From a virus: 23,964 bases of DNA. The translations under genes were made by a program, and so were the position numbers. How positions within the stretch are numbered: the first letter of the stretch is position 1; each line of letters opens with the position of its first letter. Location of the stretch: IMG/VR virus record IMGVR_UViG_3300021959_000382, positions 1 to 23,964 of that record. The stretch is one strand, 5' to 3'. Below, one piece after another: positions 3,941-22,917 of the stretch. The notes beneath the pieces were generated by a model, which was not told where the DNA came from, made no database searches, and was given only the letters and a program-made list of their open reading frames with translations.

Positions 3941-5503
3941 TTATCTCCTATCGTTTACTGCATACTCTAATGTTGCGGAATCTATTGAAAATACTGCGTC
4001 TGTTCCAGCACCTGTTGTTTCGTACAAAATAGATACTGTAAAACCTGAACCTATTGTTTGTACTTCATATATAGCTTTCTGCTTATTACCAAACAAAGAT
4101 GTGCCATATATACCTTCACCATATGTTACTGAAGCGGCAGAATCAGTTGTCAGTACAGAATCTGGTTGTATTGTTGTTGGCTGGTCAAAGTCAAACTTTA
4201 GTGAATATTCTAAATCAAATGAACCATTAACATCTAAGTATGTAGTGCCTTTATAAAATGTCTTACGTACCTCTGGGTCAGATATAGGTGTAAATGGTGT
4301 AGCAAATGTAGCGGAAATATGTGCGCCATCTTGTGTGTTACCTTGTTCCATCTGATATACATAGCCTGTAGCATTACCAAAGTATATTACTTCTGAAGCA
4401 CCTGTAGCACCGAAGTCATACTCACTGTATACTACATATGCATTGAAGCCACGTAAGTCATTCCACTGTATACCTTCTTGTAGTTGTGTACCTGCCACAC
4501 CTTTTGCGGCACTATTCTGGTATGTAGAATTATAACCAAATATTCTATATTGACTTTTTTCTCTGATAACTGTACTAGCAAAACCACCGGGGCTAGATGA
4601 TGTTAAGTCTAGCATTTCTGTCTGAATAGGTTTAGATATTACAGCAAGTCCAAAGTCACCAATTTTATCCGTAGCATTAAATAGTCTCAATCCGTCAGGA
4701 CCTAAGAATATAATGTCGCCACCTATTTCCTGTATGGTATCTTCAGAAACACACCCAAGATTTCTTGATACAGGTTGTAGTACAAAGTCAGATACACTGT
4801 TACCTGTTAAAATATTTATTGTACTTCTGCTAAATATAACTAACTGCTCACGGAATACTACAAGACCAGTAATCGGGTCAGCTATATTTATTACACCACC
4901 ACCATTAGCAATACTAAAGTCGTCATCTTCATATGGTGCTGAGTAAACTAATTTATTTCCTACACCTAAAAATATATGGTTTTTAAAATTAATAATCTGA
5001 GTAGCACCAGATGTATCTGCAGGTAGTGATGTTAATTGCTCAAATGTAGTACCGTCAAATCTAAATGGCTTACCTGTACCATCAACAACCATTAACTTTT
5101 CTGTGCCATCAAAGTCATACTTTAAAAATCTGACCTTGCCTGAACCACCTATTGTAACACCTGAACTGCTGTATGTAGCATTATCTGTAGCTTGTGTCCA
5201 TGAACTTGTAGCGGCTAATCCATCACAGAAAAATAAATCATCTCCTCTACATGCGTAGATGTTAGCACCATATTTAAATACACCACGAATTAAACCTGTG
5301 TTTGGAACAACAGGTATGTTAGTACTTGTACCACCTAACTTTTCAAAACCTTCTACTCTACGATATCCACCAAACACAGAAGGTTCAAAGTTACGTAAGA
5401 TACGAGCAGACCCCGGTGCTTGTATACCGTGTTGATAAGGTGATAGGTTAGTAATCAACCCACCCTTGTATTCAACAGAATAGGTTTGCCATCTATCTGC
5501 CAT
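3941..5503 (-). CDS. Tail nozzle / tail tubular protein B-like
   Basis: 520 aa with strand-rich repeated elements throughout: LIRGVFKYGANIYACRGDDL (about 71-90), KNHIFLGVGNKLVYSAP (about 174-190) and FREQLVIFSRSTINILTG (about 217-234). Such repeats fit the beta-propeller of short-tail nozzle proteins (T7 gp12, P22 gp10 and related families). The opening YKGGLITNLSPYQHGIQAPG followed by ARILRNFEPS is characteristic of this marine phage family as I remember it. It is coupled by TAATG to the adaptor gene upstream and followed three bases later by the fibre gene. The order adaptor, nozzle, fibre is the usual podovirus order. There is no membrane segment. Assignment to nozzle is by composition, size and context rather than by alignment. 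Confidence 0.85.
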   Translation of the reverse strand: MADRWQTYSVEYKGGLITNLSPYQHGIQAPGSARILRNFEPSVFGGYRRVEGFEKLGGTSTNIPVVPNTGLIRGVFKYGANIYACRGDDLFFCDGLAATSSWTQATDNATYSSSGVTIGGSGKVRFLKYDFDGTEKLMVVDGTGKPFRFDGTTFEQLTSLPADTSGATQIINFKNHIFLGVGNKLVYSAPYEDDDFSIANGGGVINIADPITGLVVFREQLVIFSRSTINILTGNSVSDFVLQPVSRNLGCVSEDTIQEIGGDIIFLGPDGLRLFNATDKIGDFGLAVISKPIQTEMLDLTSSSPGGFASTVIREKSQYRIFGYNSTYQNSAAKGVAGTQLQEGIQWNDLRGFNAYVVYSEYDFGATGASEVIYFGNATGYVYQMEQGNTQDGAHISATFATPFTPISDPEVRKTFYKGTTYLDVNGSFDLEYSLKFDFDQPTTIQPDSVLTTDSAASVTYGEGIYGTSLFGNKQKAIYEVQTIGSGFTVSILYETTGAGTDAVFSIDSATLEYAVNDRR

Positions 5504-6231
5504 TAATTTGCAAGCCTTGAAACTACGTTATTAGATGTACCGCTTCGCACAATCATACCTGACCTTACATAATGGTAACGGTTAATAAGCATAGAACGCA
5601 TATTCTTAATGCCTTCTTCAAATCTTTCTTTCATTACAAGTGAATCTTGTGTATTACCTCTAAACAAATATGCATAGTGCATAGCACCATCTACAATAAT
5701 ATGTTTAAATCTTTCTGGTATAATTGGTACATCATCGTATAAGTCTAGGTCTACAGGAATGCGATAATATTCATACACAAGAGTATATGCTTTATCTGGT
5801 GTAGGACTTACTATATATTCAAGAGATGGTGCATGTGTTACATATAAAGGAACACCACGCAATGCAGAATCGGTGGTGTATTCTTGTTCTATATATTTAT
5901 CAAGATATTCTTCGTAAGCTAATGTACCAAGTCTTTGTGTACTGTTGCCTAATGTAGAACTTTCTTTTATTCGGAAACTATTAAAGTCTATTACTTTTGA
6001 ATCATGAGGAAAAGCATATCTGCTTACGGCTGATGAAAGAACATCTTCCTGCTCTACGTGATTAAAAGGCCAACTATATTCTGACTGATTAATATATCTG
6101 ATTGCGGCATTGACAGCATCCTTACTGTGTGCATAAAAACCTGTAGCACTAGCAAAGTTACTTGAAGTCAACTCAACTTCGTTTACACGCCTGTTGATTT
6201 CATTTACAAGTTCAAGAAATTCATATGCCAT
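5503..6231 (-). CDS. Head-to-tail adaptor (tail tubular protein A-like)
   Basis: 242 aa, mainly helical, close to the size of podovirus adaptor proteins that bind under the portal ring. Seen: an N-terminal helix (FLELVNEINRRVNEVELTSS, 5-24), DAVNAAIRYINQSEYSWPFN (about 38-57), a Tyr-rich middle with VYEYYRIPVDL, and a C-terminal IPERFKHIIVDGAMHYAYLF helix (about 171-190) followed by INRYHYVRSG. This set is what I recall from SU10-type adaptor families in marine phages. It overlaps the nozzle gene by TAATG and is preceded by a small structural gene with the same overlap. Function is known for the family; membership here is my judgement. Confidence 0.85.
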   Translation of the reverse strand: MAYEFLELVNEINRRVNEVELTSSNFASATGFYAHSKDAVNAAIRYINQSEYSWPFNHVEQEDVLSSAVSRYAFPHDSKVIDFNSFRIKESSTLGNSTQRLGTLAYEEYLDKYIEQEYTTDSALRGVPLYVTHAPSLEYIVSPTPDKAYTLVYEYYRIPVDLDLYDDVPIIPERFKHIIVDGAMHYAYLFRGNTQDSLVMKERFEEGIKNMRSMLINRYHYVRSGMIVRSGTSNNVVSRLAN

Positions 6232-6575
6232 TATTTTTCTCTTATTACAAGTTTAACGGTACGTTCTGCAACACTAGCTGTATTATCTGTCATTGTACAA
6301 GTAAAGATGTATTCTCTATTCAATACACCACCACCTACATTTATTGTAGCAACAGTGGTTGTATTAGTTTGAGATACATTTTGTATATCGTCTGTAACAG
6401 CACTACCCGAAGCAGTAGTCAAGGTTTGACCTGATGCTAATGTAGTTTTACCTATTTCAGATGTTTGTACAGACCAGACAATAGTATCAATTGTATTGCT
6501 TCCAAGAAACCTTGACCAATCTATACTATAATCTAATGTTTCATCTGGGTCTTTAACAGGCCAACGAAATGACAT
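6231..6575 (-). CDS. Small tail/connector structural protein (fibre-adaptor-like)
   Basis: 114 aa. It begins MSFRWPVKDPDETLDYSIDW followed by SRFLGSNTIDTIVWSV and ends ASVAERTVKLVIREK. This KDPDExLDYxIDW...DTI...W opening and ERT-x-x-L-x-V-x-E closing are typical of a small immunoglobulin-like protein found beside adaptor genes in podo- and siphoviruses, sometimes called a fibre-tail adaptor. It is preceded by AGGAG and overlaps the adaptor start by TAATG. There is no signal or membrane segment. A virion role is likely; the exact position in the tail is not known from the sequence. Confidence 0.78.
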   Translation of the reverse strand: MSFRWPVKDPDETLDYSIDWSRFLGSNTIDTIVWSVQTSEIGKTTLASGQTLTTASGSAVTDDIQNVSQTNTTTVATINVGGGVLNREYIFTCTMTDNTASVAERTVKLVIREK

Positions 6576-6584
6576 CCATATCTC

Positions 6585-8279
6585 CTATGCCGCTTTTGAG
6601 GCTCTTGCTCTTCGTTCTGCTGATGTAGATACTCGCTCTACATAAACTTTTCTTATTTCTCTTTGTACGTACACAGTTCTTTCTGAGGATGCCTGTGTGA
6701 AACCTTCAACATAAACTGTTCTGCTTCTGTCATATAATTCTTTTACAGCTTCAAAGTCAAATGCTACGCCTGTTGCTGTAACTATGCCTTCATCAATAGT
6801 AGCTGAAACACTATCAAGTATTTTCTTAACATTAACTTGTAGTGTGCCTATAGCACCTGTAGCATCAACACTTGCTATTACTTTATCAAAACTTAAAGCT
6901 AGTGTGCCTACACCACCAGTAGCCTCTACACCTTCTAAACCAGCAGAAGTAGTAGTTGTTACAGAACCAACAGAAATTGTAGCAGATACAGATTCTAATG
7001 CTTCTAGTGTTCTTGCTTCAATTATGCCTACATTTGATGTAGCACTTACACCTACAATTGTTGGTGTTACACCTACGCCTACGCTACCTGCTGAACCTGT
7101 TATTACCTGAGTAGGTAGGTTTTCTATTATGTTTTCTTGTGTAGTTCCTACTGAAGCTGTGGCACTTACACCAGCAGGTTTAGCTGTTAAATTTTCTTGT
7201 ATAGTTCCTAGCGCACTTGTAGCTGATACTCCAGTAGTTATTATTTCTGTAATATCAACTTCAAAACCACCAACAGTTACAGGTTCAATTGCACCTGTAG
7301 CACTTACGCCATCTACTATTTGTGTTACACCAAATCTAATATTTACACTATTAGTAGATGCTGTACCACTTACGCCTGTAAGTATTTCTGTTATATTTGG
7401 TTGTAGTGACGGAGTATTAGTTGTACCTAAAGCACCATCTAGTTCTACGGTATTTGATATTGCTACTGTACCAATACTACCTGTAGCTGATACACTATCT
7501 AATATCTCAGTAGGTTTATCTTCTACTGTACCAACTTCACCTGTTGCCGTAACACCAGTTAAAGTGACACTATTTCCTATATTAACAGTATTTGTAGAAC
7601 CAGTAGCAAATACGCCAGATATTATTTCTGTAATGTTAACAGTGAGTGTTCCGATAGTGCCTGTAGCACTTACACTACCTATTAACTTACGTATACCACT
7701 AGTAACATCTATTGTGCCTAGTATAGCGTTAGCATCTACACCTGTTGCTATAATCTCTGTTACATTAGGTTGAACAGCAGGTGTATTTGTTGTACCTACA
7801 ATTCCATCAGGACCTACTGTATTAGCTATTGTAAATGTACCGATACCACCAGTAGCACTTACGCCTGTTAATATTTCAGTTGGTTTGTCTTCTACAGTAC
7901 CAACAGCACCTGTAGCTGATACACCTGAAGGACTAACAGTGTTAGCAATTGTAAATGTGCCAACTGCTCCTGTAGATGTTACACCCGTTAACGTGGTTGT
8001 AGCTTTACCTGTAGCAGTTACAGTGTTTACTGCACTAGTAGCACTCACACCTGTTAATGTTGTTGTAGCTTTACCTGTTGCTGTAACAGTACCTACAGCA
8101 CCAGTAGCACTTACGCTGTTTAATGCCTCTGATATATCAACTTCAAATCCACCAATACTGACAGATTCTACAGCACCCGTTGCTGATACACCGTTATTTA
8201 TGGTAACAAAGAATAAACCATATTTAGCCGTACCGTAAACCGCACTACCATAGTTAGCTTGATTTATAGTAACGGACAT
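6585..8279 (-). CDS. Virion protein built of about 20 GVSATGAVGT repeats
   Basis: 564 aa. Residues 10-21 carry a YGSAVYGTAKYG motif. From about 29 to 500 the protein is about 20 tandem units of 18-25 aa (two units carry longer insertions), each starting [TSD]GVSATGAVGT and ending in a variable strand such as VEDKPTEIL. There are almost no Lys or Arg residues there and only a few acidic ones. This spacing suggests a beta-solenoid or chain of small beta domains. Higher-order duplication is visible: the VEDKPTEIL...GTTNTP...QPN[VI]TEI block occurs at 129-177 and 252-300, and GGFEVDI[ST]E at 43-51 and 337-345. The C-terminal 60 aa switch to a charged tail with three [RK][TK]VYV copies. It lies between a head structural gene and connector genes, so it is probably a head or tail appendage. 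AAGGAG precedes the start. Confidence 0.85.
   Translation of the reverse strand: MSVTINQANYGSAVYGTAKYGLFFVTINNGVSATGAVESVSIGGFEVDISEALNSVSATGAVGTVTATGKATTTLTGVSATSAVNTVTATGKATTTLTGVTSTGAVGTFTIANTVSPSGVSATGAVGTVEDKPTEILTGVSATGGIGTFTIANTVGPDGIVGTTNTPAVQPNVTEIIATGVDANAILGTIDVTSGIRKLIGSVSATGTIGTLTVNITEIISGVFATGSTNTVNIGNSVTLTGVTATGEVGTVEDKPTEILDSVSATGSIGTVAISNTVELDGALGTTNTPSLQPNITEILTGVSGTASTNSVNIRFGVTQIVDGVSATGAIEPVTVGGFEVDITEIITTGVSATSALGTIQENLTAKPAGVSATASVGTTQENIIENLPTQVITGSAGSVGVGVTPTIVGVSATSNVGIIEARTLEALESVSATISVGSVTTTTSAGLEGVEATGGVGTLALSFDKVIASVDATGAIGTLQVNVKKILDSVSATIDEGIVTATGVAFDFEAVKELYDRSRTVYVEGFTQASSERTVYVQREIRKVYVERVSTSAERRARASKAA
7981..8112 (-). repeat. Two adjacent 66-base tandem repeat units inside the solenoid gene
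   Basis: Bases 7981-8046 and 8047-8112 are near-identical 66-base units that share GTTGTAGCTTTACCTGT on the plus strand and differ mainly at third positions. They encode two consecutive copies of the TATGKATTTLTGV unit. Retained identity at the DNA level means this pair is a recent duplication or is being homogenised, unlike most other units in the gene, which are similar only as protein. Confidence 0.85.
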
Positions 8280-8292
8280 ACCGTATTACTCC

Positions 8293-8730
8293 TTATGCTA
8301 TACGAATAATAGCAGTAGAAGCACCAGCGGCAGGAAATTCAATAGTTAAGTCACCAGCAGTAGCACTAACTGTTCCACCAAAATCTATAACAGCAATAGC
8401 TGAATTTGAGTTGGCAGTGTTATAAATAATACAACCATCAGCAGATACTGTTACATCTGAAAATACTTCATCAGCAAAGTCAACAATAGCAGTTGAGCCT
8501 GACAGTGAAATTGTTGCACTACCTAATGCTTGACCACCAGCACTATATCCTGTACCTGATGCCTCGTCTGAGTTACCAGTTACATCTGAATAGTTAGTTG
8601 TTGAAGCATCATATGTACCACTTGGGGATTCTTTAATAAGCGCAAGTTTAATTGAATCGGTATCTAAATCGTGTAAACCGCCAAGTAACTCTTGCTTAAA
8701 ACTATTGCACATTGCAGTTGTAATAGCCAT
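8293..8730 (-). CDS. Phage structural protein, head/neck region
   Basis: 145 aa. The opening AMCNSFKQELLGGLHDLDTD (5-24) followed by SIKLALIKESPSGTYDAS, the central GTGYSAGGQAL, and the ending LTIEFPAAGASTAIIRIA form a pattern I recognise as a conserved, uncharacterised virion protein of marine phages and some prophages. The composition is beta-rich and the charge low. The start follows GGAGAAAATAA. A hairpin (8761-8785) separates it from the decoration-like gene upstream. Its place between the capsid genes and the connector genes suggests a head or neck component. No catalytic motif is visible. Confidence 0.8.
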   Translation of the reverse strand: MAITTAMCNSFKQELLGGLHDLDTDSIKLALIKESPSGTYDASTTNYSDVTGNSDEASGTGYSAGGQALGSATISLSGSTAIVDFADEVFSDVTVSADGCIIYNTANSNSAIAVIDFGGTVSATAGDLTIEFPAAGASTAIIRIA

Positions 8731-8792: not shown

Positions 8793-9287
8793 TTAAGCAA
8801 GTGTGTCTCTGTCTACTTCAGTAGCTTTATCTAAACTACCGACAGGCATGACTACTGCAAATATACGTAGCACACCTGCGCTAATCGTACCAGCAGTACC
8901 TGCAAAAGTAAGTTTCAACGGTGCAGCTGCATCCACTACTTGTGGATTTGCAGTTGCTACAAGTACAGTTGCGTATGTACCTGCAGAAGCACCATCAATG
9001 TCAAAACCATCTACCCAACCATTTTCATCACCACCAGAGATACCTAAATCTACAGTAGCGTCTGAAGCAGTATTAGTTAGAGCAGTTACAACTTCAATAC
9101 CAGCAAACAAACAAACGCAGTTTGCAGGAATATCAACACATTCAATGGTACTACCATTAGCATCAATATTTTGGTTTGAGAAGTCAATAGTCTGCTCTAC
9201 TAGGTAAGACTTTACACGTGAATTTACGCCATAAGTAGGACCATGATTTGTATTGGTTGTTGCCAACGCTGTTGTTGTTGCAGCCAT
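8793..9287 (-). CDS. Probable head decoration / capsid-associated protein
   Basis: 164 aa, low in Lys and Arg, with an Ala/Thr/Val-rich strand pattern (TYATVLVATANPQVVDA, AGTISAGVLRIFAVVMPV near the C-terminus). It follows the major capsid gene by 13 bases, with a very strong Shine-Dalgarno (AAGGAGG). It is thus likely co-expressed with capsid at high level, which is the usual situation of decoration or cement proteins. The GWVDGFDIDG segment (about 91-100) is acidic. I do not recognise a named decoration family, so the assignment rests on position, size and composition. A neck protein is the alternative. Confidence 0.78.
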   Translation of the reverse strand: MAATTTALATTNTNHGPTYGVNSRVKSYLVEQTIDFSNQNIDANGSTIECVDIPANCVCLFAGIEVVTALTNTASDATVDLGISGGDENGWVDGFDIDGASAGTYATVLVATANPQVVDAAAPLKLTFAGTAGTISAGVLRIFAVVMPVGSLDKATEVDRDTLA

Positions 9288-9300
9288 TTTCTAACCCTCC

Positions 9301-10362
9301 TTATGCCAAGTTGTAAATTGCGTTTACAAGACCTTCAGGACGAAGAATCTTGCGACCATACAAGTGCATACCACGTACAATGTCAGCAAAGCTGTCAGGG
9401 TCACGATATGTTTCAGTCTTGTTGATTTGCTCTGCAGTAGCAACAGCGGAATCATGTCCAGCAACAATCACACCGTAGTTAGATGCATTCATACCACCTG
9501 TTGTGGATGAACCTGTTCCAACTGATGGAAGGTTGTTAGATTGATAAATGCGGAAACCATGCAAGTTATTTAAAACAAGACCGTTCTGCAATCCAGAACC
9601 ACCGAAGTCTGCATTTAGAAGACGTGAATCTTCGTCCTTTAGAACTTCAATAAATACTGGGTCAACGACCATCCAACGACCTGTTGTGTCAACATTCTGT
9701 TGGTCTAGCAAACGTGACATACGTGCAATAACCTGTAATGGGTTTGCTTCACCATCACCTGTAGGTACAGCACCAGCACCAGTACGTGGAAGGATAGAGA
9801 TACTCTGTCCAGCTACGCCTGTTCCTGCAAAGTCTGTAGCGTCTAGCTTCATAGTTGCAAGTAGTTCGTCAGAACCAGCAGTTGTTACAGCTTTTGAACC
9901 GTTTACAACGTCATTGGCTGTGTCAGCATTTGCATGTAAAGCAGACTGCTTGAAACCTGACAAGTAGCCAAGAACGTCTTGGTCAAACTGGTCAGCCAAA
10001 CGGTATGCCGCACGGTCAGATGCTAGTGATTGGAAGTTCACATGTGAATGTGCTTCTTCAATGTCATCAACCTTAAATGCAAAGTAGTTAGCTTTGTCAA
10101 TTGTTAGGCTGAAGTCTTCATCGTCTAGGTCTTGTGCAGTGATTTGTGTGCCACGTGCATAAGCCTGAACTGAGATTTCGGGTTCTTTGATAATCTTAAC
10201 GGAATCACCCATGTTAGCAATCTCACCGAAGTAATCGGAGTTTGAAATTGCTTCAGCAACGGCAGACTTGCGGAAAGCAAGTTGTACCTGTTTGCTGTAA
10301 ATAACTGGGCTAAAATTACCGTTAGGAAGATTACCATACCCGGCTGCGGATGTAAATGCCAT
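9301..10362 (-). CDS. Major capsid protein
   Basis: 353 aa, a usual size for an HK97-fold coat protein. Seen: N-terminal NLPNGNFSPVIYSKQVQLAF (11-30), a helix-rich DYFGEIANMGDSVKI segment (about 43-57), IDKANYFAFKVDDIEEAHSH (about 88-107), then the ADQFDQDVLGYL helix, the TGRWMVVDPVFIEVLKDE strand-helix unit (about 226-243) and a C-terminal YRDPDSFADIVRGMHLYGRK. These features (spine helix, then VVDP near the A domain, then a C-terminal strand returning) fit the coat proteins of short-tailed marine phages. It lies directly after the scaffold gene and behind its own promoter and a 195-base leader; AGGAG precedes the start. I see no N-terminal prohead protease domain. Confidence 0.93.
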   Translation of the reverse strand: MAFTSAAGYGNLPNGNFSPVIYSKQVQLAFRKSAVAEAISNSDYFGEIANMGDSVKIIKEPEISVQAYARGTQITAQDLDDEDFSLTIDKANYFAFKVDDIEEAHSHVNFQSLASDRAAYRLADQFDQDVLGYLSGFKQSALHANADTANDVVNGSKAVTTAGSDELLATMKLDATDFAGTGVAGQSISILPRTGAGAVPTGDGEANPLQVIARMSRLLDQQNVDTTGRWMVVDPVFIEVLKDEDSRLLNADFGGSGLQNGLVLNNLHGFRIYQSNNLPSVGTGSSTTGGMNASNYGVIVAGHDSAVATAEQINKTETYRDPDSFADIVRGMHLYGRKILRPEGLVNAIYNLA

Positions 10363-11546: not shown

Positions 11547-13079
11547 TTATTTTTTAGAGGCTAATCCACCTGACCTCATCTGTTTAGGCTTTGGTTCAGG
11601 CTTTGATGCTAAACCGCCTGAGTTGTATTCTCTTTCTTTATCACGCATTATACTTGCTGTAGCCCTTTGCGCTCTCTCTATAGCTTTTTGAGTGTCTTCT
11701 CTTTCAGAAGCAGATTTTTTACTTTGCGCTTTTTCAGTTGCTTTACGTAATTTAGCTGTATCTGATTTTTTCTTTTCCTTAGTTTTTTTACTTTGTGCCG
11801 TTTTTTGGGCTTGTCTTACCGCACTTAATGAAGCCGTATCTTTTAGTTGTGCTTTTTTATCACCTTCAACTTCTTTGAATGCTCTTTTTCTAGCATATTC
11901 TTCTGGGTTTAGTAGTCTTTCTTCTCTTTGACGTTTTAATGCTTCTTCTCTTCCTTCGTCAAACATACTCGTGTATACGTTATAAAATTTCTGATTTATT
12001 CCACCTTCTTTAGATAAATCTAAATCAGGCGTGTCTTCTGGATTTAACGCATATTTTCTAGCATCAGAACCAAAAAATGCTAAACCCCCTGTAAGTGGGT
12101 CTAAATATTCTCCGTTGTCACCTATAATATATCCTGTTGCTGTTCTAGTTCCCGGTTCTAATTTTCCTAATGCTGTTGAAAAAGAAAATGGATTTGCAGG
12201 AGTAGTAAATTCATTATATAAAGATGCAGCTGCGTCTACTCTACGTTTATCTTTTCTCATTTTTAATTTTTCGTCATCTGTTTGACCACCATCATCATCC
12301 CTTACACTTGCCTGACCAAGAGTAGGTGTTACAGATGTTGCTTGTGCATCAGGTGCAGTGTATTCACTGGCTAATATAAAACCTTCAGGTAACTGTGTTA
12401 CACCGGGAATGTACGTTATACTTCTACGTTCTCCTGTATCTGGATTAACTATCTCAACTAATTGTGGTGCTGATTCTGGTGTCTGTACTACACCCGGATA
12501 TGATACATCTTGCATCTGTTCAGGAGTAAATGTAGGTACTGCCTGTTGTGTAGCTGGGGTATAAGTTGGAGCAATAGGTGTTGTTGCTTGCGTAGGCTGT
12601 TGTTGCACTGTAGTTGTAACAGGTGCTTGTGGCTGTTGAACAAAAGATGTAGCAGGTACTTGTGAAGGTACAAACCCTGCAATACCAGTAGCAGGTCCTG
12701 TCAATCCACCTGTTGCCATTTCTACTGTGTCATTATTATACTCTATTTCATCATCCATGTCAAGGTCTGATAATTCAAATGGTATGTCATCTGGTACAAC
12801 AGCTTCTTCGCTATTACCCATCTGACCCATCTTATCCATCATAGTCAAACCCATCTTAGCTTCTTGTCGCATCTGCATAAGTTTTTCAAGACCAATGTAT
12901 CGTACTACGTCAGCAGGAAATACAAACTCACCCTCGCTTAATTGTGCAGGTATGTCATCTCTTACTTCTTCTTGCGTAGAACCTGCTGGTACATCATTGC
13001 CTGATATAGGGTCTATTGTTCCACCTTCGTCCATAAGACCACCATCTTCAAACATTTCCATTTGTTTTTCAAGTGCCAT
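11547..13079 (-). CDS. 510-aa low-complexity protein between portal and scaffold
   Basis: Unknown function. An N-terminal conserved core (about 1-105) contains VRDDIPAQLSEGEFVFPADV followed by VRYIGLEKLMQMRQEAKMGL, which I recognise from many marine phages. Residues about 130-200 are a Gln/Pro/Thr/Val-rich, probably disordered linker. Residues about 270-500 are strongly charged and helical with Lys/Arg/Gln/Ala runs (AQSKKTKEKKKS, KAQSKKSASERED). Short GGL motifs recur: EDGGLMDEGG, ATGGLTGP, NSGGLASKPEP and the C-terminal RSGGLASKK. There is no membrane segment or enzyme motif. It overlaps the previous gene by 11 bases, with GGAATGAAGTAA before its ATG. A head-internal or DNA-binding virion protein is possible, given the basic C-terminal half next to portal and scaffold. 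Confidence 0.85.
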   Translation of the reverse strand: MALEKQMEMFEDGGLMDEGGTIDPISGNDVPAGSTQEEVRDDIPAQLSEGEFVFPADVVRYIGLEKLMQMRQEAKMGLTMMDKMGQMGNSEEAVVPDDIPFELSDLDMDDEIEYNNDTVEMATGGLTGPATGIAGFVPSQVPATSFVQQPQAPVTTTVQQQPTQATTPIAPTYTPATQQAVPTFTPEQMQDVSYPGVVQTPESAPQLVEIVNPDTGERRSITYIPGVTQLPEGFILASEYTAPDAQATSVTPTLGQASVRDDDGGQTDDEKLKMRKDKRRVDAAASLYNEFTTPANPFSFSTALGKLEPGTRTATGYIIGDNGEYLDPLTGGLAFFGSDARKYALNPEDTPDLDLSKEGGINQKFYNVYTSMFDEGREEALKRQREERLLNPEEYARKRAFKEVEGDKKAQLKDTASLSAVRQAQKTAQSKKTKEKKKSDTAKLRKATEKAQSKKSASEREDTQKAIERAQRATASIMRDKEREYNSGGLASKPEPKPKQMRSGGLASKK

Positions 13080-20086: not shown

Positions 20087-20428
20087 TTAACTCCGTTGTG
20101 GTAAATAAGTTTCTTTTACTTTTACAGTGATTGTCACTGCACTATTCGCACTAGCAAGTCCTCTGAGTTTATCTCCTTTAAAAAGCCATAGTGGGTCATC
20201 GTTTATCTGCAATAAACTGTTTGGTAGTAATTCTATTGTTTCAGCTAATGTGTAGAATGTAGTGTTCTGTGCATCGTACCAATCTAAACTAAATGTCACA
20301 CTACTTGTTGAAGCATTGTTGATGTAGATATTATCTATCTCTGCTTCATAATTAGCAGGTACAGTGTATATATCTTGATTAACAGTTGTAAGCTGTAACC
20401 CTACTGTACGGTTCTTTGTCTCTGCCAT
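20087..20428 (-). CDS. Small beta-rich virion-type protein, paralogue of the 2196-2540 gene
   Basis: 113 aa. The strand pattern (DIYTVPANYEAEIDNIYINN, then SSVTFSLDWYDAQN, then LFKGDKLRGLASANSAVTIT) has the same order and spacing as the 114-aa protein at 2196-2540. Both have a xxTVP or TCP opening strand, a middle long strand, a G-D turn before the last strands and about the same length. The Asn, Ser and Thr content fits a virion surface protein. It starts one base after the stop of the 249-aa gene. No enzyme motif. A cement or tail accessory role is inferred. Confidence 0.8.
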   Translation of the reverse strand: MAETKNRTVGLQLTTVNQDIYTVPANYEAEIDNIYINNASTSSVTFSLDWYDAQNTTFYTLAETIELLPNSLLQINDDPLWLFKGDKLRGLASANSAVTITVKVKETYLPQRS

Positions 20429-21179: not shown

Positions 21180-21325
21180 TACTTAATACGAACCTTGTCA
21201 ATACAGATGACTGACCACTTGTGTAGTTTTACATTCCACTTGCCAAGCAGTCTAGCCGTCTTCAGAAATAGATGACTTAAAAATGTCCAATAAGCATCTA
21301 CTATGATATTCTTTAAATCTGTCAT
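21179..21325 (-). CDS. 48-aa small gene
   Basis: Forty-eight codons: MTDLKNIIVDAYWTFLSHLF, LKTARLLGKWNVKLHKWSVI, then CIDKVRIK and stop. The ATG overlaps the TAA of the 45-aa gene (TAATG), and its own TAA overlaps the ATG of the 249-aa gene (TAATG). Such double coupling is unlikely for a chance frame. The peptide is an amphipathic, basic helix with several Trp and aromatic residues, possibly membrane-peripheral. Function unknown. Confidence 0.72.
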   Translation of the reverse strand: MTDLKNIIVDAYWTFLSHLFLKTARLLGKWNVKLHKWSVICIDKVRIK

Positions 21326-21462
21326 TACTTCTTCTTAGCTACGCCACCACGCATCATTTTCTTCTTAGCCATCTTAGCCATGCCACCACCACGCATTTTC
21401 TTTTGTGCAACACCGCCACGCATCATCTTCTTCTTAGCTACTTTTGTCTTACCCATTGCCAT
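21325..21462 (-). CDS. 45-aa KKMMRGG repeat protein
   Basis: The start is at the MAMGKTK Met (21462), fixed by a strong AAGGAG nine bases before it; a longer upstream frame lacks this. The whole protein is three copies of AKKKMMRGGVA-type units with 14 Lys, 3 Arg, 9 Met and no acidic residues. It overlaps the previous gene by 14 bases and ends in TAATG with the 48-aa gene. Nearby copies of the codon string for KKMMRGG form short DNA direct repeats. Function unknown; the charge suggests nucleic acid or membrane binding. The GGVAKKK ending recurs in other proteins of this window. Confidence 0.8.
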   Translation of the reverse strand: MAMGKTKVAKKKMMRGGVAQKKMRGGGMAKMAKKKMMRGGVAKKK

Positions 21463-21979
21463 TACGTAATCTCCTTCTATCAAGAACCAAGGCTTCATAT
21501 ATATCATCAGGAAAATGTTTATAGTATCCTGACTTCTCTAAACTCAGTGCAGCATCATCTAACACTGACAAACGCTGCACGAAAACCATGCAGTATTCTA
21601 AATCACTACTAGTTATACCATCTTCTTCTAAAAAGTCAAGACCTGCATCACTAGCATCAAACTCTGGATGAAACACCATCAAGTGTAAATCTATACCTGC
21701 TAGGCTTAGTGCTTCATTCATGCCATCACATAAACCATCTAGGTATTCCATGCTAGGCATGTTTTCATCAGCCCATACAACTATGTCATAATCATGGCTA
21801 TCAAATATCTGTATCTCTGCACGTAGACCTTCAAGACCTGTATTAACACTAAAGACTACCTTATTATCTGCCCATGCTTTAGCGGCATAGGGGCAGGGTG
21901 GTAGTCCGTTTAGTTTTACATTTGGTATCTCAAGAAAGTTATGTGACCAGTTACGTATGTCTTGTTCTACTCTATGCAC
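21449..21979 (-). CDS. 176-aa conserved phage protein of unknown function
   Basis: I place the start at a GTG (21979) giving VHRVEQDIRNWSHNFLEIPN, because the longer frame (22036) runs through the HNH-like gene with an unlike, Leu-rich sequence. Conserved-looking pieces are LNGLPPCPYAAKAWADNKV (about 23-41), YDIVVWADENMPSMEYLDGL (about 64-83) and YCMVFVQRLSVLDDAALSLE (about 119-138). Similar proteins occur in cyanophages and other marine phages as I recall, without known function. It has no membrane segment and no known catalytic motif, though D/E-rich loops are present. It overlaps the HNH-like gene by eight bases. Confidence 0.75.
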   Translation of the reverse strand: MHRVEQDIRNWSHNFLEIPNVKLNGLPPCPYAAKAWADNKVVFSVNTGLEGLRAEIQIFDSHDYDIVVWADENMPSMEYLDGLCDGMNEALSLAGIDLHLMVFHPEFDASDAGLDFLEEDGITSSDLEYCMVFVQRLSVLDDAALSLEKSGYYKHFPDDIYEALVLDRRRLRNGNG

Positions 21980-22220
21980 GTTTATTCTTTTTACCTGCTG
22001 TAGTTGTTCTAGCAAAAGAACGATTACGTGATGCACGTTGTGTTGTTAGGTTACTACGTCTGTTATCAGTAGGATTACCATTCTTGTGTGCTACATCCTT
22101 ACCTGCTACATTTACACCGCCCTTTGCTAGTGTTGCACGTGCAGCATTACGAGATGCCCTGCGCTTCTTCTGTGCAGGTTTAGCGTGGTAGTTAGCATAT
22201 TCTTTTTTATAATTACGCAT
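21972..22220 (-). CDS. Small basic HNH-like protein, probably degenerate
   Basis: 82 aa, very basic. Residues 41-69 (KDVAHKNGNPTDNRRSNLTT, then QRASRNRSF) match the shape of a short HNH endonuclease motif: the His45-Lys-Asn-Gly-Asn turn, the DNRRSNL segment and the closing Asn-Arg-Ser. The residue before the first His is Ala where Asp or His is usual, and no zinc-binding cysteines are present, so activity is doubtful. The arrangement is typical of small marine phage HNH relatives. Coupled by TAATG to the upstream gene. It may be a DNA-binding remnant. Confidence 0.78.
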   Translation of the reverse strand: MRNYKKEYANYHAKPAQKKRRASRNAARATLAKGGVNVAGKDVAHKNGNPTDNRRSNLTTQRASRNRSFARTTTAGKKNKRA

Positions 22221-22612
22221 TAACCTGTAATCTTTTTAAAGGCTTCAGGGCTTTTAGCTTTCAATGCTTTCAGACCGGGGTTCATAGTAACTGAACCACC
22301 TGCTGCGTACATGTGCTTCTTGCCATATGCCATGCCACCATCTTTCATAGCAGATTTTTTATCTGACATACCTTTCGGTACGGCTCTTGCTTTCTTCTTT
22401 ACTACAGGATTATAATCAGGAGAAGGTGCAGGAGCATTTACTTCATTTGAAGCTACTCTTCGTGCAGCCCGATACACATCTGCTCCATACTTTTCTTTTA
22501 GACGTTTCTGTACACCTTTAGCGTACTCCGTAGTTTTATCACTACCGTCATTAAGCATGGCAACTGCTTCAGTTAAAGCAGCTTGGTCTGTTGTTGTCAT
22601 ATTACCAGCCAT
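22220..22612 (-). CDS. 130-aa Lys-rich protein with GG motifs
   Basis: The start is set at MAGNM (22612) because AGGAG and GGAGA lie eight to ten bases upstream; a longer frame starting at 22630 would place this Shine-Dalgarno inside the gene. Residues 10-50 are helical (TEAVAMLNDGSDKTTEYAKG, then RLKEKYGADVYRAARRV). The region 55-90 is Pro/Lys-rich and probably disordered. The C-terminal 40 hold GGMAYGKKHMYAAGGSVTMN and a helix (LKALKAKSPEAFKKITG). No known family. Small, basic virion or DNA-binding protein by composition. Eleven bases after the previous stop. Confidence 0.78.
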   Translation of the reverse strand: MAGNMTTTDQAALTEAVAMLNDGSDKTTEYAKGVQKRLKEKYGADVYRAARRVASNEVNAPAPSPDYNPVVKKKARAVPKGMSDKKSAMKDGGMAYGKKHMYAAGGSVTMNPGLKALKAKSPEAFKKITG

Positions 22613-22623
22613 TATTTCTTCTC

Positions 22624-22917
22624 CTACCATTTTACTTTATGTGACCAATACTTAGCTGATAGCTTGCTGGTCGGTTTACCTTGTGCATCATGCCTTGCAT
22701 AATACGACTTCTTACGTGCTTTATCCTTTGCAGTCTTAGGATTCTTACCTGCACCTGATACGCCTTGCTGTCCAAAGCGAATAAATTTATATGTGTCACC
22801 TTCCTTCGCCATCACACAGTGAGACTTAGTTGGGTGTTTAGGGGTACGTTTTGGCTTATTAACGCCAGTAAGCCCCTCTTCTTTCATTTTGTTTTTGACA
22901 CGCTCTGGTATAGCCAT
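22624..22917 (-). CDS. Conserved small basic phage protein (FIRFGQQG family)
   Basis: 97 aa. Characteristic blocks: MAIPERVKNKMKEEGLTGVN (1-20), PKHPTKSHCVMAKEGDTYKF (26-45), IRFGQQG, and a C-terminal AKDKARKKSYYARHDAQGKP, SAKYWSHKVKW. From memory this family is common in marine phages (possibly DUF6321, not verified). Function is unknown. The highly basic, His/Lys-rich C-terminus suggests nucleic-acid binding. AGGGG is seven bases before the ATG, and TAATG couples it to the upstream gene. Confidence 0.85.
   Translation of the reverse strand: MAIPERVKNKMKEEGLTGVNKPKRTPKHPTKSHCVMAKEGDTYKFIRFGQQGVSGAGKNPKTAKDKARKKSYYARHDAQGKPTSKLSAKYWSHKVKW

Follow-up and report, generated by a model that had tools for sequence, protein, structure and literature searches.

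Curli subunits of the CsgA type are built from beta repeats of about 20 residues. Among bacteriophages, those of the HMO-2011 type are presented in passages of PMC9038755 as dominant in the ocean, where their distribution is broad, with a DNA polymerase carrying a partial DnaJ domain as one of their features. In bacteriophage SU10, the long tail fibers (gp12/gp13) are described in the relevant parts of PMC9509320 as trimers with a coiled coil that hang on a dodecameric adaptor, to which they are docked by their N ends. For bacteriophage phiCbK, gp76 has been proposed as the head filament, with a lectin domain and tandem duplications, and the corresponding passages of PMC3556154 state that it was not detected by mass spectrometry in virions. 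The window analyzed here is the complete IMG/VR virus record IMGVR_UViG_3300021959_000382, of 23,964 bases, and the element under study is an open reading frame (ORF) of 564 amino acids (aa) at positions 6585..8279 of its minus strand, most of which consists of short tandem repeats. We infer the role, orientation and fold of its product from the evidence given below, and consider it rather likely that it is the rod of an accessory adhesion fiber, probably a beta-solenoid, which a short-tailed marine phage carries on its neck or tail.

The protein is strongly periodic. Autocorrelation with the BLOSUM62 matrix gave a mean score of 0.60 at a lag of 20 aa (z 9.7), 0.53 at 40 aa (z 9.0) and 0.39 at 123 aa (z 6.6), and the top autocorrelation at any lag in 1000 shuffles was 0.13. 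A total of 23 units were laid out between aa 31 and aa 510, starting at aa 31, 56, 78 and so on up to 491; 20 of these starts were found by a regular expression for the motif and the other three, which are degenerate (aa 160, 283 and 391), by spacing. Sixteen of the 23 units measure exactly 20 aa, the last one by an arbitrary end, and the remaining seven 21–26 aa. The tandem short units reported in a preliminary description of this DNA were therefore recovered, but the unit is one of about 20 aa that contains GVSATGAVGT, and not this 10-aa sequence itself. The parts of the gene are the following:

6585..8279, minus strand: repeat-rod protein, 564 aa, from ATG to stop (ORF list, periodicity and family)
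8196..8279, minus strand: conserved N end, aa 1-28, with the tandem YG motif ANYGSAVYGTAKYG (alignments)
6765..8189, minus strand: repeat core, aa 31-505, with 23 units whose modal length is 20 aa (regular expression and periodicity)
7983..8114, minus strand: adjacent pair of 22-aa (66-base) units, aa 56-99 (Tandem Repeats Finder row 7981-8111)
7371..7928, minus strand: block of about 63 aa in two copies, aa 118-180 and aa 241-303, at a lag of 123 aa (autocorrelation)
6585..6764, minus strand: conserved C end, aa 506-564, FDFEAVKE.YDR.RTVYV (alignments)

Beyond the motif of the C end there are further VYV copies, whose number differs among relatives. The preliminary description named a YG motif near the N terminus and VYV in three copies, both of which are present, and its higher-order duplications agree with the peak at 123 aa and with the resemblance of aa 118-180 to aa 241-303. 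Its nearly neutral composition, on the other hand, was not found: the core (472 aa), rich in T, V, G, A and S, has 38 acidic residues (24 E and 14 D) against 12 basic ones (9 K and 3 R), giving a net charge of about −26. No Pfam or PHROG family matched the ORF at an expect value (E) ≤ 0.1, nor any NCBIfam family at E ≤ 0.01.

Relatives were collected in IMG/VR, where 46 loci were obtained by protein search, 145 and 185 were confirmed by alignment searches, and a query with the protein of phage DSL-LC04 (WJZ48131.1) gave 115 loci of a second group with another C end, here called clan 2. The best 80 of the 145, the best 80 of the 185 and the best 80 of the 115 were analyzed, and the locus counts are not independent, some being the same contig twice or near-identical phages. 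For eight of nine loci (L024, L028, L052, L080, L103, L127, L131, L141 and L146), the rod ORF was used and not the tail-fiber ORF behind the hub gene; the ninth was dropped. Members of clan 1, to which the window protein belongs, range from 178 aa (L039) to 855 aa (L009) and have their ends in common (YG N end and FDFEAVKE.Y.R.RTV C end) with a variable middle; F507, F509, Y516 and R520 are invariant in all 27 sequences of alignment A4. A best period of 20 or 40 aa was obtained for 92 of the 104 complete and distinct proteins from clan 1, and one of 22 or 44 aa for all 73 proteins tested from the 80 loci of clan 2. The repeats of both clans were aligned by hhalign with a probability of 99.5%, a type of score that repeats inflate, and their ends differ. 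DSL-LC04 and clan 2 have in common with the window protein the repeat type and a phrog_644 gene directly upstream (in DSL-LC04 and in 45 of 71 clan-2 loci), but they differ in the 22-aa period, in N ends of WG..WG or other type, in the C end W..DDSQ..W and in that no Gp77 gene was found.

The neighboring genes were counted in loci that had been retrieved by the repeat protein, not by Gp77 or phrog_644. Of 227 loci, 186 were counted; nine had no called member, 18 were incomplete on their 5′ side, and the others had fewer than 500 bases of upstream sequence. In clan 1, Gp77 lay less than 300 bases downstream in 114 of 115 loci and phrog_644 less than 150 bases upstream in 113 of 115; in clan 2, Gp77 was downstream in none of 71. 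Within clan 2, a YG or WG N end and an adjacent phrog_644 were both present in 43 loci and both missing in 19, with seven loci having the motif only and two phrog_644 only (Fisher test, 1e-9). Counting by distinct N end, the figures were 24, 14, 5 and 2, respectively (p 6e-6). One clan-1 locus, L010, was scored as lacking the motif merely because a domain precedes it, and its YG motif lies further inside. These sequence patterns suggest that the two ends of the rod are fitted to two partners, Gp77 and phrog_644. That both ends are conserved and co-vary with particular neighbor genes is also in line with their earlier description as attachment parts.

With small ORFs omitted, the minus strand begins with genes for the large terminase subunit and the portal, which are followed by those for proteins of 510 and 291 aa, the major capsid protein, a protein of 164 aa and phrog_644; then come the repeat ORF, the Gp77 family protein, an SU10-type adaptor, the probable tail hub and tail-fiber-like genes. 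The genes around the repeat ORF are:

9301..10362, minus strand: major capsid protein (phrog_267 major head protein, E 2.4e-67)
8793..9287, minus strand: 164-aa protein after the major capsid gene, possibly for head decoration to judge from its position
8293..8730, minus strand: phrog_644 protein of 145 aa, its gene lying immediately upstream of that for the rod (PHROGs E 1.7e-22)
6231..6575, minus strand: Gp77-family fiber-tail adaptor, 114 aa, directly downstream (Pfam PF23148, E 4.6e-14, 53.1 bits)
5503..6231, minus strand: portal-to-tail adaptor of SU10 type (Pfam PF24175, E 6.3e-17)
3941..5503, minus strand: probable tail hub or nozzle protein (matches to phrog_5107, which bears the name amidase, with E 3e-54, and to the head closure family phrog_578, with E 6.5e-9)

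The hub or nozzle role of 3941..5503 is probable from gene order, and the 164-aa protein had no match in Pfam, PHROGs or NCBIfam. The score of gene 6231-6575 for PF23148 (Gp77, podophage GP4 fiber-tail adaptor) is above the curated cut-off of 27 bits, and its profile A5 matched the chain 8jou_D, titled 'Virion-associated phage protein', with E 7e-4 over 30 residues; its putative role is taken from the Pfam name and from this chain title. The adaptor protein is 60.5% identical to that of Roseobacter phage CRP-345 and 47.1% to that of HMO-2011 and, since it has homologues in both, the window genome is classed by sequence as an HMO-2011-like podophage. By annotation, its capsid, adaptor, hub and fiber genes are ordered as in phages of this type, and the host is probably a marine alphaproteobacterium, judging from the cultured relatives. 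General scans of some window ORFs turned up no DNA polymerase with a partial DnaJ domain, no search having been aimed at it. The comparison with SU10 is one of working principle, its fibers being borne by an adaptor whose Pfam family is also that of the 5503-6231 product; in the window, the adjacency of rod gene and adaptor gene is one of genes only. Whereas the SU10 fibers, which are coiled-coil trimers, dock by their N ends, the window rod is proposed to dock by its C end, and membership in the SU10 fiber family is not claimed. The Phage_T7_tail attachment domain was not found in the repeat ORF (no Pfam family at E ≤ 0.1), and a weak match to it (22.5 bits, cut-off 25.2) occurred in a different ORF, 1738-2184.

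A tblastn search in 50,697 phage records with the window protein as query (E ≤ 1e-3, low-complexity filter on) gave two Roseobacter phages only. In the 27 phage records with a matching adaptor, phrog_644 and Gp77-type matches were found, among the matches listed, only in CRP-345, CRP-207 and CRP-603, the repeat gene being recognized by sequence in the first two and by position and C-end motif in CRP-603. The corresponding products (CRP-345 gp55, CRP-207 gp50 and CRP-603 gp57), all annotated as hypothetical, are repeat proteins with the C-end motif and with a Gp77-type gene and then an adaptor gene close behind, although they are shorter than the window protein (268, 287 and 223 aa, respectively). 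Unlike the window, CRP-345 has a 37-aa ORF before Gp77, and CRP-207 and CRP-603 have a different N end and extra genes between phrog_644 and the rod gene. In CRP-603 this slot holds an 879-aa protein annotated as tail fiber and in CRP-207 four genes, one of them with a Collar match (Pfam E 2.2e-18) and a Collagen match (2.8e-5, below Pfam's cut-off) and another with a Gly_rich_2 match. Because of these fiber-like genes, the slot is a fiber locus. In bacterial genome contigs, a single scan with a single pattern gave 31 matches and no confirmed relative, and prophage copies may exist. No paper pointing to the repeat protein was retrieved by literature searches with the exact repeat motif and with phage-type terms, no account of an adhesion protein of HMO-2011-type phages was found in the literature on them, no article on a GP4 structure was retrieved, and PMC2447325, considered as a source of GVSATG, does not show the motif in its main text.

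Several relatives carry inserted domains. The insert of L037 matched Laminin_G_3, a lectin-type domain (Pfam E 2.1e-16), as well as baseplate-wedge and virion structural families of PHROGs, and that of L064 matched the tail-fiber family phrog_30742 (E 6e-12). L008 and L009 have most of the C-terminal rod in common and differ in their N-proximal domains, which have no family match; an insert in L017, also without match, looks by eye like that of L008. L037 and L109, whose neighbor proteins are 99.2% identical, have the insert in one of them only, although this is not a simple insertion because the rods outside it are identical at only 183 of 254 positions. Taking gene neighbors and lectin-type and tail-fiber inserts together, the elongated virion appendage put forward in the preliminary description is the best reading of this gene. 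Two further peculiarities were observed in the family. The YG motif of the N end occurs once more halfway along the protein of L062 (1112-2650), as though two rods were fused, and L023 and L085 bear a C-terminal tail with its own variable R.VYV array, in which L085 exceeds L067 by 20 aa.

The family phrog_644, of unknown function in PHROGs, bears on the site of attachment. Its window member (8293-8730; another member lies at 5989-6405 of L155) was matched by 191 phage records, and the best PDB match of its profile A6 was no better than E 0.89. One homologue, phiCbK_243 (30.1% identity, E 2e-6), lies 74 nt upstream of phiCbK_242, a gene of 8400 nt whose product, of 2799 aa, equals gp76 in length. 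Like some relatives of the window protein, gp76 is long, tandemly expanded and lectin-bearing, and lies directly behind a phrog_644 gene; it differs in being glycine-rich, in its 2799 aa and in showing no detected similarity to the window protein, for which no Caulobacter phage appeared among the tblastn matches (with the low-complexity filter on, a weak relation is possible). In CRP-901, phrog_644 stands before a putative tail fiber gene, and in mycobacteriophages MooMoo and Bruin after minor tail genes; it looks like a general fiber partner, for which tail and head positions are both possible. The window rod could then be a head or neck filament like that of phiCbK, attached to the capsid through the phrog_644 protein and not to the tail, as would fit the homologue placed 74 nt before a gene with the length of the proposed head filament (PMC3556154, in the passages cited above) and phrog_644 being the second gene after the major capsid gene in the window. 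We think this unlikely, since Gp77 and SU10-type adaptor genes directly follow the rod gene, the phrog_644 genes of CRP-901, MooMoo and Bruin accompany tail genes, and the phiCbK assignment is itself a proposal, gp76 having gone undetected in virions.

Regarding the fold, AlphaFold predicted for the full chain (27-sequence alignment) an all-beta model with regularly spaced strands. The VIA-align rows for this model are mainly beta-solenoid, S-layer, leucine-rich-repeat and left-handed-helix proteins, and its top geometric match was CsgA (8c50), with Z 19.3 over 322 residues and a root-mean-square deviation (rmsd) of 9.3 Å for a model of low confidence. The likeness to curli consists in the ~20-residue beta repeats and in this geometric match; on the other side, identity is 9% and no curlin family was found in the window protein (0 Pfam families at E ≤ 0.1). 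A beta-solenoid is the probable fold, with a trimeric beta fiber as a possible alternative, and the solenoid of the preliminary description is kept tentatively, the model being strand-rich and solenoid-like with mostly solenoid-type alignments, but of low confidence. Other structural candidates were rejected. Four BFVD matches at E ≤ 0.001 had template modeling (TM) scores of 0.10-0.34 at rmsd > 18 Å, and nothing was drawn from them; the first, a 'receptor protein-tyrosine kinase' of Caulobacter phage Ccr34, was not tied to a filament gene, and no feature with this name was present among the 22 around phrog_644 in Ccr34. A profile match to IgA1 protease (7uvk, E 3.6e-9) was a repeat-on-repeat alignment of low accuracy and not homology.

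Several points weigh against an adhesion fiber on the neck or tail. The mean predicted local distance difference test score (pLDDT) of the full-chain model was 51.6 and its predicted TM score 0.35, and the model of L020, a 254-aa relative (17 sequences), had a pLDDT of 43.3. Foldseek found no PDB match at E ≤ 0.001 for the model, and for the repeat protein there was no reliable match to a solved structure. Neither a YG/WG N end nor an adjacent phrog_644 was seen in two of 115 clan-1 and 19 of 71 clan-2 loci, the motif without adjacent phrog_644 occurred in seven of 71 clan-2 loci, and the co-variation of ends and neighbors could reflect common descent and not contact. As phrog_644 also precedes a candidate head filament, a head site is possible. 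In HMO-2011, CRP-1 and HTVC033P, tblastn gave no match to the three cassette genes and the annotated regions are without such a cassette; because of this absence, at tblastn sensitivity, the cassette is judged dispensable in HMO-2011-type phages. Of the length differences above 8 aa treated below, 23 of 72 misfit a 20-aa step. Finally, no virion proteomics or imaging of any family member was found in the literature, and the terms 'mass spectrometry' and 'proteom' are absent from the main text of the CRP-345 paper.

The low confidence of both models, the net acidic core rich in T, V, G, A and S and the missing cassette of some HMO-2011-type phages would also fit a linker or assembly factor of the neck and tail, with flexible or disordered acidic repeats and no binding role. 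This appears quite improbable to us, given that the fixed period of 20 or 22 aa (92 of 104 proteins in clan 1, all 73 in clan 2) and the strand-rich models argue for ordered beta repeats, and that the lectin-type and tail-fiber inserts argue for surface display.

The relationship between the units was also studied at DNA level. The two adjacent 66-base units, described before as nearly identical, have 76% identity in one register and 83% in Tandem Repeats Finder; the best pair of 60-base windows is identical at 49 of 60 positions, with 2, 1 and 8 mismatches at codon positions 1, 2 and 3, and the longest exact repeat is 18 nt. Synonymous divergence per site (dS) is 0.71 and nonsynonymous divergence (dN) 0.07 between the adjacent 22-aa units (aa 56-99), and dS is 0.99 between the copies of the ~63-aa block. 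The differences are mostly synonymous, and similarity is maintained in the protein rather than in the DNA. In the window's own lineage, L002, L003 (95% identity) and L004 (84%) all have exactly 564 aa. For aa 29-505, dN/dS was 0.27 against L004 and 0.48 against L003; for the C end it was 0.05 against both, and for the N end 0.06 against L004 (from four synonymous and one other difference). By these values, the rod gene is under purifying selection. The unit at the same position was the best match for 23 of 23 units in L003 and 20 of 23 in L004, the three exceptions suggesting local unit turnover. The DNA-level homogenization of the preliminary description is thus not supported, in view of these orthologous best matches and of a best 60-base pair of only 49/60.

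Length does vary in the family at large. Among 142 non-redundant pairs with more than 95% identical neighbor proteins, 58 were equal in rod length, and 49 of 72 length differences above 8 aa deviated from a multiple of 20 by no more than 2 aa, against 18 expected for an even distribution (the pairs overlap). The length difference between L110 and L113 is exactly 60 aa, and their flanks are identical at 144 of 156 and 588 of 606 bases. The extra 60-aa block of L111 and L113 shares only about 78-79% identity with the most similar copy within its own gene; it is therefore no fresh duplicate and points to recombination or an old duplication. Even and odd unit lengths (20 excluded) numbered 307 and 259 with a loose anchor, and no claim of insertion in residue pairs is made. 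Recombination probably also affected the gene studied:

6380..6739, minus strand, limits to about 60 bases: probable recombination tract, rod C end and start of the Gp77 gene (60-base windows)

Outside this tract, the window DNA and L003 are near-identical in phrog_644 and along the rod, with mostly 0-6 mismatches per 60 bases. In the six 60-base windows of the ~360-base tract they have 14, 13, 6, 3, 7 and 14 mismatches, whereas L003 and L004, with as many as 24 mismatches per window along the rod, have 1, 1, 0, 1, 5 and 0. The dS against L003, 0.05 in the core, rises to 1.26 in the C end because the tract covers it. The C end and part of Gp77 were probably transferred jointly in one event, with either genome as recipient. 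Of the length change by slippage or recombination proposed earlier, variation among relatives, often by whole units, and recombination were supported by the comparison of repeat number among related genomes; fast slippage was not, the window's lineage keeping 564 aa in L003 and L004 and the block of L111 and L113 not being a fresh duplicate. Unit-step differences despite near-identical neighbors (L110 and L113, 60 aa), and three of 23 window units that resemble another unit more than their orthologue in L004, which allows local turnover, would fit a surface protein in which fast slippage and DNA homogenization change the number of units. We consider this very improbable, since length and orthologous units are conserved in L003 and L004, adjacent copies differ chiefly at synonymous sites and the inserted block is no recent duplicate of its own gene.

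Returning to an adhesion fiber on the neck or tail, each 20-aa unit would form one turn of a beta-solenoid or, in a fibrous beta trimer, one repeat. The Gp77 adaptor would be the docking site of the conserved C end and would link it to the adaptor ring, and the YG N end and the phrog_644 protein would act together, probably in the direction of the distal end. Rod length would set the reach, the lectin-type domains carried by the rod may bind glycans of the host surface, and length and payload would change mainly by recombination between related arrays rather than by fast slippage.

Elsewhere in the window, the genes 502-915, 915-1343 and 1340-1741 are consecutive in the tail-fiber region. The first two matched phrog_11355 (tail fiber), and 1340-1741 had no PHROG match at E ≤ 0.01, yet its end (FGDLA) is like theirs, which suggests gene duplication. 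Two genes that are far apart, 2196-2540 and 20087-20428, matched phrog_1276, of unknown function. Lysine-rich stretches with MRGG-, AAGG- or GGLASK-like motifs near the protein C ends were observed in 21325-21507, 22220-22630 and 11547-13079, and the small ORF 21975-22220 is HNH_3 endonuclease-like (Pfam 25.9 bits, cut-off 24.8).

As a broader and doubtful idea, phrog_644 and the GVSATG-type protein might constitute a portable adhesive-filament module of aquatic phages. It would be a self-folding, curli-like beta-solenoid of exactly 20 or 22 residues per turn, whose N end would be adapted to phrog_644 and whose C end, an exchangeable part, to the attachment site. Recombination by unit steps would set the reach, lectin-type domains would lie between turns, and the phiCbK head filament would sit on the same phrog_644 dock. 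If this were true, the C end would be placed on Gp77 in podophage tails and on another partner elsewhere. The finding gives a lead on the function of phrog_644, with a possible tie to the phiCbK head filament. A rod of fixed period, with two modular ends, their partner genes and interchangeable lectin-type domains, would lead to testable predictions on the adhesion fiber, its reach and the evolution of its specificity, in a family that is large and so far unnamed in aquatic phages.

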